Assembly (NCBI RefSeq): GCF_000013385.1
Contig: NC_007760.1
Location: 3,136,001 to 3,200,000, forward strand
Length of the DNA stretch: 64,000 nt
Source: Anaeromyxobacter dehalogenans 2CP-C
GTDB taxonomy: Bacteria; Myxococcota; Myxococcia; Myxococcales; Anaeromyxobacteraceae
Direction of reading: 5' to 3'
Of the stretch, positions 7,557 to 36,918 are shown piece after piece. A model generated the notes under the pieces. That model was given only the letters and a program-made list of their open reading frames with translations. It made no database searches and was not told where the DNA came from. The translations under genes were made by a program, and so were the position numbers. Each line of letters opens with the position of its first letter. The stretch's first letter is position 1.

Positions 7557-9377
7557 GTGCTCCTCGCCGTCCTCGTCGCGTCACTCGCCTCGGCGACCCC
7601 CGCGCCGGTCGCGAGCGCCGCCCCGGGCCTGGAGCCGCTGCGCCGCGCCTACGGCGCCGCGGTGGGCCGCGTCGCGCTCTGGCGCCGCGCGCGCGAGCGC
7701 GAGGACGCGCCGCCATTCGGCCACCTCGCCACCTCGCAGGTGGGCTACGCCCCACGCATGCAGAAGCGCTTCACCTCGCCGCGCCCGTTCACGTCGTTCG
7801 AGGTGGTGCGCGAATCCGACGGCGCGGTCGCGTTCCGCGGCGGCCCCCCGGTCCGCGCCGTCGGCACCGACCTGCTCGGCGCGACCCGCACCGTCTGGAT
7901 CGGCGACTTCTCGCCGCTCGCCGAGCCCGGGCGCTACCGCGTGGTCCTCGACGGCGGGCTGGCCAGCCATCCGTTCGGCGTCGGCCGCGAGGTGTTCGAT
8001 CCGGCGGTGCGCGCGGTCCAGCGCTGGTTCTACTACCAGCGCGCCTTCACGGCGGTGGAGGCCCCCTGGGCCGAGGGCCCCTGGACGCACCCCAGCGACG
8101 CCGCGAAGGCGCCGCCGGGCGTGCGGAAGGGCTGGCACGACGCGGGCGACTTCTCGATCTACAACGCGCCGCTCGCGACGGCGCTGTTCTGGATGCTGGC
8201 GGCGTACGACGACTTCGCTCCCTCGGACGACGCGACCCACGTCCCGGAGTCCGGCAACGGCGCCCCGGACCTGCTCGACGAGGCGCGCTGGGGGCTGGAG
8301 TGGCTGGTGTCCGTGCAGGACGCGGCGACCGGCGGCTTCGCCTCGACCACCTGCCAGGATCGCTACGCGCGCTACGGCGAGAACACGCACGCCTCGGTGC
8401 CCCCGTACCGCGCCGGCGAGGTCGGGACGCTCGCGACCGCGCGCGCCGTGGGGACGCTCGCGTTCGCGGCGGCGGTGTTCGACCGGCGCGATCCCGGCTT
8501 CGCGGCGCGCTGCCTGGCCGCGGCCCGGCGCGGCTACGCGTACCTGGAGGCCCGCCCGGGCGAGGCGAGCGACGGCCCGTCGTGCCCCGCCTACCGCCGC
8601 GACGGCGACGCGGAGGTGGGGCGGCACGTCCGGATGTACGCGGCGGCGGGGATGCTGCGCGCGACGGGGGAGCGCCGCTTCGCCGCGGACTTCGAGCGCG
8701 CCTCGATCGCGTCCTGGGCCGATCCCGACTACCACCACGTGGCCGCGTTCGCGGCCCGCCTCTACCTGCGGGCGCCGGCCGGGGACCCCGCCCGCAAGCA
8801 GGCGCTGCGCGAGCGCTTCCGCGCGCTCGCCCAGGAGGTGCGCGTCGCGGCGGACGCCCATCCCTTCGAGCTGGCGGCGCGCTACCAGTGGGGCTCCATC
8901 AGCGCCGCGCTGCACCGCGCCGGCGCCTCCAGCGCCTGGGCCTGCGTGGACGCGGGCGGGCGCGGCGAGGACTGCGACCGCGCGCTCGCGCCGATCCACT
9001 ACGCGCTCGGCCGGAACTACCTGCAGCTCTGCTACGTGACCGGGCTGCCGGGGGTCACGCGCGGCGTGCGGCGGGTGTTCCATCACTGGCTCGCGACGCT
9101 GCGCGCCGAGCCCCCCGTGTTCCCCGGGGCGCTGGCGGGGGGCCCGAACCCCCGGCCCGACCCGCGCGACGTCTCGTACCCGCAGGCGCGGCCCAGGCCG
9201 ATCTGGGGCTACTTCGGCGACCCCGCGTTCCCGCGCGACGACGCGACGCCGATCGAGGGCCGCTACACCGAGAACGACAGCTGGTCCACGAACGAGACCG
9301 CCGCCGACTGGCAGGGCGCCGCGCTGTACGGGCTCCACCTCGCGCAGTGGCTCGCGCGACGGGCGGACGCGCCCTGA
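7557..9377 (+). CDS. Secreted glycoside hydrolase family 9 with N-terminal Ig-like domain
   Basis: The 606-residue protein starts at GTG and has a signal peptide (LLAVLVASLASA). Residues about 55-145 match the cellulase N-terminal Ig-like domain (HLATSQVGYAP, RVVLDGGLASHPF). The (alpha/alpha)6 catalytic domain follows. It carries the nucleophile/base motif GWHDAGDFSIYN (Asp195, Asp198), DLLDEARWGLEWL, and the C-terminal ENDSWSTNETAADWQ containing the proposed acid glutamate. GH9 enzymes cleave beta-1,4 glucans. In this neighbourhood it could trim the organism's own exopolysaccharide or degrade plant cellulose. It ends 4 bp from the convergent asparagine-synthase gene. Confidence 0.9.
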   Translation: MLLAVLVASLASATPAPVASAAPGLEPLRRAYGAAVGRVALWRRAREREDAPPFGHLATSQVGYAPRMQKRFTSPRPFTSFEVVRESDGAVAFRGGPPVRAVGTDLLGATRTVWIGDFSPLAEPGRYRVVLDGGLASHPFGVGREVFDPAVRAVQRWFYYQRAFTAVEAPWAEGPWTHPSDAAKAPPGVRKGWHDAGDFSIYNAPLATALFWMLAAYDDFAPSDDATHVPESGNGAPDLLDEARWGLEWLVSVQDAATGGFASTTCQDRYARYGENTHASVPPYRAGEVGTLATARAVGTLAFAAAVFDRRDPGFAARCLAAARRGYAYLEARPGEASDGPSCPAYRRDGDAEVGRHVRMYAAAGMLRATGERRFAADFERASIASWADPDYHHVAAFAARLYLRAPAGDPARKQALRERFRALAQEVRVAADAHPFELAARYQWGSISAALHRAGASSAWACVDAGGRGEDCDRALAPIHYALGRNYLQLCYVTGLPGVTRGVRRVFHHWLATLRAEPPVFPGALAGGPNPRPDPRDVSYPQARPRPIWGYFGDPAFPRDDATPIEGRYTENDSWSTNETAADWQGAALYGLHLAQWLARRADAP

Positions 9378-9381
9378 CCGC

Positions 9382-11322
9382 TCAGGCCAGCACGCGGTGC
9401 CGGTGGCACCAGCGGATCAGGACGTAGACCGACCAGACCCTCGACCAGTAGATCCCGGGAGCGCCGTCCAGGAACGCCCGCCAGAGGCGGCCGACCGCGT
9501 CCGGATCCAGCCCGGCCTGCCGCACCGCCGCCGCGTCCCGCATCGCCTCGTCCATCGCGGTGCGCAGGCCCCGCCGGATCCAGCGGTCGAACGGCAGCAC
9601 GAAGCCGCTCTTCGGCCGGTCGAACAGCGCCGGATCGAGGCCGCGCAGGCCCACGCGGCGCAGCAGGGCCTTCTTGCCGATCGGCGAGTAGCGAAGATCG
9701 TCCGGCAGCGCATCGACGCACTCGAACAGCGCCTGGTCCACCAGCGGCACGCGCTGCTCGAGCGACGCCGCCATGCTCGCGACGTCGTTGTCGCGCAGGA
9801 GCCGCTCGCCCAGGAACAGCCGCTGCTCCAGGACGCTGAGGGCCGACAGCGCCGAGCGGCTCCCGGTCTCCGCGTCGAGGCGGGCCCGCATGGCCGGCGG
9901 CAGGCCGTCGCGGAGCGCCGCCACGGTGCCCTCCCCGACCAGCTCGCGCTGGAAGCCCGGCAGGAACAGCGCGTAGGCCAGCTGGTACAGGCCGGACAGG
10001 TCGGCGCCGCGCCGGACCATCTCCGGGAGCTTCGCCCAGCGCGTCTGCGGCGGCGTCGCCCCGCGCCCGCGCCGGAGCGGCGCCGTCCCCACCGTCGCGG
10101 CCGCGACGCGCAGGCCCAGCGGGACCCAGCCCAGGCGCTGGCTGAGCCGCTGCAGCACCGGCAGGTCGCGGAACGAGGTGTACCCGCCGAACAGCTCGTC
10201 GCCGCCGGTCCCGGCCAGCGCCACCGTGAACCCGGCGGAGCGGATGGCGTGCGAGAGGTAGTAGGAGTTGAGGCCGTCGAACGTCGGCTGGTCCAGGCTG
10301 TCCAGGGCGGCCTCGAGGTGCTCGACGAAGTGCCCCTCGGTGAGGACGACCTCCTGGTGCTGCGTCCCGATGGCCTCGGCGATGCGCCGCGCGATCGGGC
10401 CCTCGTTCAGCTCCTGCTCCTCGAACGCGAGCGTGAAGGTGTGGACGGGGGTGCGCGCCACGCGCTGCGCCAGGTTCGCGACCGCCGACGAGTCGATGCC
10501 CCCGGACAGGAACACCGCGAGCGGGACGTCGCTCGCGAGGTGGAGCTCCACGTCGTGCTCGATCGCCCGGGCCAGGTCGGCCTCGGTGGTGGGGCGCCGC
10601 GCCGGCGCGCCCGGGATGCTCCAGAAGTCCACGGCGCGCCGCTCGGCGCCGTCCGGCCCGAACTCCACGGCGCGCCCCGGCCACAGCAGCTCCACCCCCT
10701 CCACGGCCGTCCCGGGGCCGACCACGAACCCGTTCCACACCACCGAGGCCACCGCGCCCGGATCGAGCCGGGGCGTCCCGAGCAGCCCGGAGGCGAGCAG
10801 GGCCCGCAGCTCGGAGGCGAACGCGATCGACCAGTCGCCGCCGGGCTCCCGGCGGCGCGCCACGTACAGCGGCTTGATCCCCAGCGGATCGCGCGCCAGC
10901 CGCAGCGTGCGGGCGGCCGGGTTCCACAGCGCGAACACGAACATCCCCCGCAGCCAGCCCAGCGCCTCGTCGCCGTGGACCGCGAGCGCGCGGAGCATCA
11001 CGGCGGTGTCCCCGCTGGAGGCGAACGCGTGCCCCTCCGCCTCGAGGCGCCGGCGGAGCTCCGCGTAGTCGTAGATCTCGCCGTTGTACGCGACCACGTG
11101 GCCGGTGACCGGATCCGTCATCGGCTGCGCGCCGGCCGGGGAGAGGTCGAGGATCGCGAGGCGACGGTGCGCCAGCATCGCCCCCCGGCCCTCGGCGTCG
11201 GGCGTGGACTCCCAGGTCCCGTCGGCGTCCGGGCCGCGGTGGACGAGCGCGGCGCTCATGCGCGCCAGCGCCGCCCGGTTCGCGTCGCCCAGCTTGCCGA
11301 GGATGCCCGCGATGCCGCACAT
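9382..11322 (-). CDS. asnB: Glutamine-hydrolysing asparagine synthase (AsnB family)
   Basis: The product (646 residues) starts MCGIAGILG, so after Met removal the catalytic Cys is N-terminal, as in class II glutamine amidotransferases. The glutaminase half also carries LVHRGPDADGTW and YNGEIYDY. The synthetase half has the pyrophosphatase loop VFLSGGIDSSAV and later GTGGDELFGGY. Such enzymes make asparagine. AsnB paralogues inside polysaccharide clusters are thought to amidate sugar acids or other carboxylates, and that is the more likely role here. A second AsnB lies at 22340-24352 and differs substantially. Confidence 0.93.
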   Translation of the reverse strand: MCGIAGILGKLGDANRAALARMSAALVHRGPDADGTWESTPDAEGRGAMLAHRRLAILDLSPAGAQPMTDPVTGHVVAYNGEIYDYAELRRRLEAEGHAFASSGDTAVMLRALAVHGDEALGWLRGMFVFALWNPAARTLRLARDPLGIKPLYVARRREPGGDWSIAFASELRALLASGLLGTPRLDPGAVASVVWNGFVVGPGTAVEGVELLWPGRAVEFGPDGAERRAVDFWSIPGAPARRPTTEADLARAIEHDVELHLASDVPLAVFLSGGIDSSAVANLAQRVARTPVHTFTLAFEEQELNEGPIARRIAEAIGTQHQEVVLTEGHFVEHLEAALDSLDQPTFDGLNSYYLSHAIRSAGFTVALAGTGGDELFGGYTSFRDLPVLQRLSQRLGWVPLGLRVAAATVGTAPLRRGRGATPPQTRWAKLPEMVRRGADLSGLYQLAYALFLPGFQRELVGEGTVAALRDGLPPAMRARLDAETGSRSALSALSVLEQRLFLGERLLRDNDVASMAASLEQRVPLVDQALFECVDALPDDLRYSPIGKKALLRRVGLRGLDPALFDRPKSGFVLPFDRWIRRGLRTAMDEAMRDAAAVRQAGLDPDAVGRLWRAFLDGAPGIYWSRVWSVYVLIRWCHRHRVLA

Positions 11323-36306: not shown

Positions 36307-36918
36307 GTGAGCGACCCGCTGGTCCTGCGCGCCCCTGGCTACGGTTGAGGTCCCGTCGCGGGCCTCGGTTGAGGCACCGCGCTCGCGCCCGTGCTGGCGC
36401 GACTCGACGCGATCCCCGGCGTGCGCGAGAGCCGCGCGGACGCCTCCGGCCGCCACTTCCTGCTCGAGCTGCGGCCCGGCGCCGATCGCGCCGCGGCCGT
36501 CGAGGCGGCCTGCGCGGCGCTGGGCGCGCGGGCGCGCCCGCTCGAACCCGCGGACGCCGTCGCGCAGCTCGAGGCGCGCGGCCGCGGCGATCCCTGGTAC
36601 GCGGCCGCGGACACGCTCGCGCTCTGCTACCTCGAGGCGCGGGTCCTCGCCGCGAACGCGGGCCCCGCCGCCGCCGGGGCCGCGGGGCTCGATCCTGGCG
36701 CGGCCGACGCGGTCTGCGAGGCCGCCAGGGCCGTCCTGTTCGAGGTGATGGAGCGGGTCCACGGCGAGGGCGGGCGACCGTCGTCCGGCTGGTTCTACGC
36801 GGAATGGCCCGCCATCGCCGCCGCCATCGCCGATCGCGCCGCGCGCCTGCTCCCGGGGCTCGGCGCCGACGCCGCGGCGCGGCTTCGTCACGCCCTGGCC
36901 GCGCTCCACGCGCGCTAG
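36307..36918 (+). CDS. Probable selenoprotein: HMA-like domain with two selenocysteines
   Basis: Reading from the GTG at 36307 and taking TGA at 36346 and 36370 as selenocysteine (U) gives one 203-residue product. It begins VSDPLVLRAPGYGUGPVAGL, then GUGTALAPVL, with U14 and U22. The next part, LDAIPGVRESRADASGRHFL, has the helix, 'GV' turn and strand order of heavy-metal-associated (HMA) domains, in which this loop normally carries CxxC. The GC-rich third positions run unbroken through both TGAs. Both are followed by a hairpin whose apical loop lies 19 nt downstream. The C-terminal 120 residues are helical with Cys and Trp (DPWYAAADTLALCYLE, SSGWFYAEWPAIAAA). It may bind or transport a metal. 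If both TGAs were stops, only a protein from 36391 would be made. Confidence 0.7.
36362..36375 (+). promoter_or_regulatory. Candidate bacterial SECIS hairpin for the first UGA
   Basis: GCCTC and GAGGC form a 5-bp stem closed by a GGTT loop. The loop's first G is the 19th base after the TGA at 36346-36348. The second TGA lies on its 3' side. From memory, the E. coli fdhF SECIS has its GGUC loop at the same distance. Confidence 0.55.
36383..36402 (+). promoter_or_regulatory. Candidate bacterial SECIS hairpin for the second UGA
   Basis: TCGCGCC and GGCGCGA form a perfect 7-bp stem with a CGTGCT loop. The loop G at 36391 is again the 19th base after the TGA at 36370-36372, so both stop codons have an apical G at the same spacing. 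Confidence 0.5.

Follow-up and report, generated by a model that had tools for sequence, protein, structure and literature searches.

Selenocysteine (Sec) is already known in proteins of the heavy-metal-associated (HMA) type, and two described families are among those closest to the locus considered here. The metal-binding (seleno)protein NF041115, of the UxxU type and listed in the 2026 selenoprotein catalogue (PMC13188914), resembles it in that two Sec are the putative metal ligands of a small HMA-type domain, and NF045683, a MerT/CopZ fusion-like heavy metal transport selenoprotein, in combining Sec with an HMA part. Two further points of comparison are MbdU (NF045648), which likewise has two Sec and is presumed to bind metal and whose motif is given as CU in the same catalogue, and the thiolate proteins MerP (TIGR02052) and NmerA (2kt2), which share the HMA fold, the mercury-operon setting of some copies and a presumed role as two-ligand Hg(II) carriers.

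The family described here differs from each of these. Its two Sec are spaced U-x7-U, in contrast to the UxxU of NF041115, only the second of them coincides with a ligand position of HMA domains, and a helical domain is added at the C-terminus; neither the window protein (the window being the whole 64,000-nucleotide stretch of DNA that was analysed) nor its relatives matched the NF041115 model. It is without the MerT part of NF045683, whose model was matched by no member, and no NCBIfam match linked it to MbdU. Whereas MerP and NmerA use the thiolates of GMTCxxC, this family has Sec22 together with a loop Sec14, no second Cys and the extra helical domain; measured against MerP (TIGR02052), the window protein has no NCBIfam match, no CxxC, and an N-terminus (MSDPLVLRAP) without signal peptide. 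More generally, it had no match in Pfam, NCBIfam release 20 or PHROGs, a comparison of 24 members with NCBIfam gave only weak matches (including mercury(II) reductase, E 0.00067), and the U-x7-U motif belongs to none of the 119 families that Table 1 of the catalogue lists (PMC13188914). What appears to be new is therefore not Sec in an HMA-type protein, but the Sec spacing, the added domain and the near absence of Cys forms.

The window covers positions 3,136,001-3,200,000 of a one-contig genome of 5,013,479 bp, whose relatives bear the name Anaeromyxobacter. The gene lies at 36307..36918 on the plus strand (as do all features of the window given below), and consists of a GTG start, 203 residues and a TAG stop in a single frame broken only by two TGAs 24 bases apart, at 36346..36348 (UGA 1, Sec14) and 36370..36372 (UGA 2, Sec22). 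Reading TGA as Sec gives a product that begins VSDPLVLRAPGYGUGPVAGLGUGTALAPV..., residues 14 and 22 being U, and the GTG at 36307 aligns with an ATG in the two nearest relatives (L007 and L008). Gly codons flank both TGAs on either side, and the 9-base word CGGTTGAGG at each of them, which the sequence-only reading of this locus had pointed out, occurs exactly twice in the window, both times on the plus strand. The arrangement TGA-N21-TGA is found eight times in the window when both strands are counted, and only after the 36346/36370 pair do more than 120 sense codons follow, so that the length of the frame is by itself weak evidence. The selenoprotein frame is settled instead by conservation: among the 25 full-length sequences (the window's own counted), position 14 is TGA in all, and position 22 in 24, with TGT (Cys) in the remaining one (L120).

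The machinery required for decoding UGA is encoded elsewhere in the genome, the window itself holding none of the Sec genes. SelA, SelB (scoring above its curated cut-off), a tRNA-Sec with TCA anticodon and a Sec-type SelD (also above cut-off) were all found, which excludes one of the two outcomes that the sequence-only reading had named as refuting a selenoprotein; the SelD gene has one in-frame TGA of its own, and thus provides a built-in positive control for UGA decoding in this genome. Overlapping the tRNA-Sec gene (L036:3354-3450, plus strand) is an ORF (L036:3389-4732, minus strand) that resembles a phage-type integrase on inspection by eye, which suggests an element integrated at tRNA-Sec, although the ORF had no Pfam match at E 1e-5.

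Full-length homologues (24) were found in Myxococcota, Planctomycetota and a third phylum-level group. Among 99 genomes searched (the window's included), the protein is present in 16, all of one family, and every copy uncut by contig ends has exactly two TGAs, at the same places and 24 nt apart. Further members came from scanning about 85,000 species genomes with a pattern, and from profile searches in three phylum-level groups (195, 392 and 379 genomes); they comprise one sequence from another family of Myxococcota (L086), five from Planctomycetota (L077, L082, L089, whose start position is uncertain, L114 and L115) and two from the third group (L080 and L120). The degenerate DNA pattern with both TGAs returned 22 matches, three of which (L083, L085 and L092) are chance matches and not family members. 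No family-like protein stood among the ORFs listed at two weak profile matches (L071 and L072). A scan of genome contigs with the profile and tblastn confirmation gave no relatives, probably because of the TGAs; the plasmid search gave no match, and the viral profile scan no confirmed relatives; the pattern had seven candidate matches in viral sequences. A possible Sec-less relative (L116 of genome G399, around 1500-1750) matches only the second, C-terminal half of the protein, and no Sec loop was found upstream of that match.

Conservation is concentrated around the TGAs. Residues 11-33 form the most conserved stretch, with a mean modal identity of 0.87 vs 0.54 and 0.49 downstream, and between the TGAs pN is 0.081 vs a pS of 0.357. 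Had the homologues begun after the second TGA, with residues 1-30 free to vary, the full-length product would have been in serious doubt; this did not occur, and U or Cys was found at positions 14 and 22 in all 25 sequences. Exchange of Sec for Cys was seen once, at position 22 of L120, and no Cys form of position 14 exists in this set. Taken together, the Sec machinery, the conserved TGAs, a SECIS-type hairpin (below) and the single Sec-to-Cys replacement strongly support the proposed two-Sec selenoprotein, and it is near certain, judging from sequence, that the full-length product is a true double selenoprotein.

How are two UGAs so close to each other recoded? A hairpin of the SECIS type (UCGCGCC-CGUGCU-GGCGCGA) occupies 36383..36402, UGA 2 and UGA 1 lying 17 and 41 nt, respectively, ahead of the start of its apical loop. 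Bacterial SECIS elements are described as having a 3-9 nt loop whose first two positions include G, a stem of 4-16 bp, a distance of 16-37 nt from the UGA and an energy of at most -7.5 kcal/mol (PMC13188914, Fig. 2A), and with respect to UGA 2 the present hairpin agrees on all counts (17 nt, 6-nt loop CGUGCU, 7 bp, -12.9 kcal/mol when folded locally, and -9.4 to -14.1 in relatives); the 41 nt from UGA 1 are outside the usual range. When the window sequence is folded over 36 nt, a competing structure comes out lower in energy than this hairpin, and an Rfam search of the locus gave no meaningful match. The hairpin covaries in a manner that is statistically weak, since it hardly varies at all, and the argument for a SECIS consequently rests on synonymous constraint: the segment CGCGCCCGTGnTGGCGCG 3' of UGA 2 is invariant DNA in 22 sequences from Myxococcota, Planctomycetota and the third group, codons 27, 28, 29 and 31 each being represented by one codon with no synonymous change, and codon 30 by CTG or TTG only, apart from one Met. 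The arms are changed and slid by two bases in L115, with pairing kept (GGCGCC-CGTGCTCC-GGCGCC).

Because L120 has UGA 1 alone and yet retains the hairpin, we infer that one SECIS serves both UGAs: SelB bound to the hairpin at 36383-36402 would direct Sec insertion at UGA 2 and probably also, over 41 nt, at UGA 1. A second possible hairpin (GAGGUCC...GGGCCUC, 36347..36366), of uncertain role, lies between the UGAs, and raises the alternative that each UGA has a signal of its own, the inter-UGA hairpin for UGA 1 and the conserved downstream one for UGA 2. The region between the UGAs (36345-36372) does fold, at -13 kcal/mol with a z of -2.3, its stem is paired in 91% of cells across 25 sequences with one double compensation, and codons 19-20, which belong to it, are nearly invariant. 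However, UGA 1 itself reaches into this stem, the loop is too near for the bacterial SECIS model, the stem is interrupted in L120 and L020, and the second hairpin is kept in L120 despite the presence of UGA 1 only. Separate signals are thus a possibility that we consider doubtful, and under the preferred reading, with one SECIS for both UGAs, the inter-UGA hairpin may act as a helper of Sec insertion.

The N-terminal domain holding both Sec (approximately residues 1-80, 36307..36546) was modelled with AF2, with Cys in place of Sec, at a pLDDT of 89.8. The predicted strands (5-8, 39-44 and 50-55) and helices (21-34 and 61-72) follow the beta-alpha-beta-beta-alpha(-beta) order of the ferredoxin-like HMA fold, and the best match found by VIA-align 2 is an HMA7 domain (Z 7.0, rmsd 2.4 over 71 residues). 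Over residues 1-85 the fold matches include the HMA domains of MerP, Ccc2a, HMA7, ATP7B and ZntA; the rows with the best Z are mostly HMA domains (7.0 to 5.5), other ferredoxin-like folds also occurring in that range. Searched against the PDB, the family profile points in the same direction (CopA 1p6t, E 0.0018; NmerA 2kt2, E 0.016; CopZ 6ff2, E 0.23), and it recovers genuine proteins of the GMxCxxC type from other genomes with E down to 7e-7. Pfam HMA (PF00403) did not match the window protein, the best value, for one of 17 members, being E 0.2.

Profile and predicted fold, each modest when taken singly, agree and support an HMA-like N-terminal half, as the earlier reading had supposed. Its further suggestion, that GYGUGPVAGLGUG replaces the CxxC of HMA domains, holds in part: Sec22 aligns with the first Cys of GMTCxxC, but Sec14, eight residues before it in an extended loop, is an additional ligand candidate upstream and no one-for-one replacement. 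The segment reads GLGU22GTA25, and the position of the second Cys is Ala25 here and Ala or another non-Cys residue in the family. With U22 alone at an HMA ligand position and Ala at the second, the domain is best called HMA-like, and not a canonical HMA domain. Residues 90-203 (36574..36915) are predicted to form a four-helix domain of unknown family (separate AF2 model, pLDDT 91.2), for which there was no Pfam match, no PDB fold match below E 1 and no convincing sequence match; copper storage proteins come up among the fold matches at E values above 2 alone, and carry no weight here.

The protein may not work in the same compartment throughout the family. That of the window, which has no signal peptide by eye, is probably cytoplasmic; four members of the planctomycete group (L077, L082, L115 and L139) as well as L120 have N-termini that look, again by eye, like those of lipoproteins, and there the protein is probably outside the cytoplasm. 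One of these, L139 (6607-7614, plus strand), is a three-Sec fusion that has a lipoprotein-like start and joins an N-terminal selenodomain of the DF family (GFTURIYG, with its own TGA) to the U-x7-U HMA-like protein. The DF family (seleno)protein (NF049942) is a separate domain, non-homologous to the window protein, and its in-frame fusion to the N-terminus of the L139 member suggests that it probably works with it.

An all-against-all BLAST of the neighbourhoods gave the impression that conserved context was absent, and the mer, hemerythrin and ars neighbours came to light once genes had been called by coding frame. The window copy is a solitary gene, with a divergently oriented glyoxalase-like gene on one side and a convergent gene for an aromatic amino acid hydroxylase on the other; like most Anaeromyxobacter orthologues, it has no mer neighbours. 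The second copy of A. oryzisoli (L049), for example, is placed otherwise: a merT-merP-copZ-merA cluster diverges from an ntrC-sel pair, with MerT assigned to PF02411 and MerA to TIGR02053 (492.6 bits, cut-off 454.45), and the stop codon of the NtrC-type regulator overlaps the start of the selenoprotein gene. L050 presents the same picture with merT-merP-copZ (MerT again PF02411), and in L138, from another phylum-level group, MerT (PF02411, above cut-off), a MerP-like HMA protein, NtrC and a Sec14/Cys22 form of the protein lie within 3 kb. After merP, the mer cassettes of L049 and L050 both encode a CopZ-type iron-sulfur metallochaperone (NF047645; L049:5452-5943, minus strand; L050:10917-11408, plus strand).

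The NtrC-type (sigma-54) regulators standing beside the mer genes and the selenoprotein gene (L049:6872-7882, plus; L050:8949-10190, minus; L138:1163-2140, plus) are 75-88% identical across two phylum-level groups, that of L138 being 75-78% identical to the other two. The regulators of mer operons are typically of the MerR or ArsR type. The L143 locus has a gene divergent from that of the selenoprotein whose product is MerR-like (134 bits against TIGR02051, short of the 150.85 cut-off); between the two genes is a perfect 22-bp palindrome, GCTCCGTACCTAGGTACGGAGC (L143:1044-1065), which we take to resemble the mer operator dyad, and -35/-10-like boxes separated by 19 bp face the MerR-like regulator. 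The divergent neighbour in L141 is ArsC-like. Hemerythrin-domain genes adjoin the selenoprotein gene in three loci of Anaeromyxobacteraceae (L039:3902-4405, L040:8433-8867, and L046:7943-8458 and 9117-9554), none of them in mer cassettes, and Trx-like genes lie near L142 and L143.

What, then, might such a protein do? The metal or mercury handling foreseen by the sequence-only reading gains from the mer-operon neighbours of L049, L050 and L138 and from the merR- and arsC-like genes of L143 and L141, and receives nothing from the window copy's own neighbours. As read from these sequences, the most plausible function of the double-Sec protein is the handling of a soft metal, most likely Hg(II). 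The probable explanation of the whole is, in our judgement, a double selenoprotein with HMA-like and four-helix domains that acts as a carrier or trap of a soft metal (Hg(II)). In the mechanism we infer, the metal ion, most likely Hg(II), would be held jointly by Sec22, where helix 1 begins, and by Sec14 in the loop before it, and would then be passed on or sequestered, much as happens with two thiolates in MerP or NmerA; metal, ligand geometry and direction of transfer are all put forward on these terms. The stand-alone copy of the window might give general soft-metal protection.

The main rival accepts the double selenoprotein and makes it a redox enzyme, whose Sec14 and Sec22 would be joined in a diselenide or serve to reduce some substrate; the association with mer and ars genes would then reflect protection against metal-induced oxidative stress. 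Uncharacterized selenoproteins are mostly thought to be redox proteins (PMC13188914), the DF-family selenodomain fused in L139 is thioredoxin-like in appearance, and the Trx-like and hemerythrin-like genes mentioned above would fit such a role. The HMA-like fold, a Sec spacing of U-x7-U and not UxxC or CxxU, and the fact that the clearest conserved neighbours are genes of mercury transport and reduction speak against it, and we consider a redox enzyme unlikely. A role in selenium storage or delivery, or in metal sensing with the NtrC-type regulator, instead of metal carriage, could be imagined from the position of the gene directly after this regulator in L049 and L050 (with the start/stop overlap in L049), but most loci have no such regulator adjacent, and where present it sits between the mer genes and the selenoprotein gene and may simply control both, so that this role appears very improbable. 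Finally, a caller that takes TGA as stop would report under table 11 a truncated 175-aa ORF (36391..36918), and that the gene begins at this GTG, with the TGAs upstream as ordinary stops and no selenoprotein at all, is barely credible and already contradicted by conservation, as that GTG is preceded or surrounded by both TGAs and by the residues of highest conservation, the GTG itself would fall within the conserved hairpin, and several homologues have in-frame lipoprotein-like N-termini before the TGAs.

Returning to the soft-metal reading, a more ambitious version of it can be proposed tentatively, as a picture about which we are close to evenly divided and slightly inclined to doubt: a two-Sec, Cys-free soft-metal site would have arisen on an HMA scaffold, a single SECIS would recode UGAs at 17 and 41 nt, mercury-resistance operons of two or more phylum-level groups would carry the protein as an accessory module, and constraint on the hairpin RNA would have frozen the peptide APVLARL.

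The usual support for candidates in selenoprotein surveys comes from Cys-containing homologues, and a family nearly free of Cys forms may have been missed for this reason. It offers a compact natural case for asking whether one SECIS can serve two UGAs. With a small two-Sec candidate in a cultured genus, relatives in mer operons and a natural Sec/Cys variant, the idea of selenolates as mercury ligands becomes directly testable.
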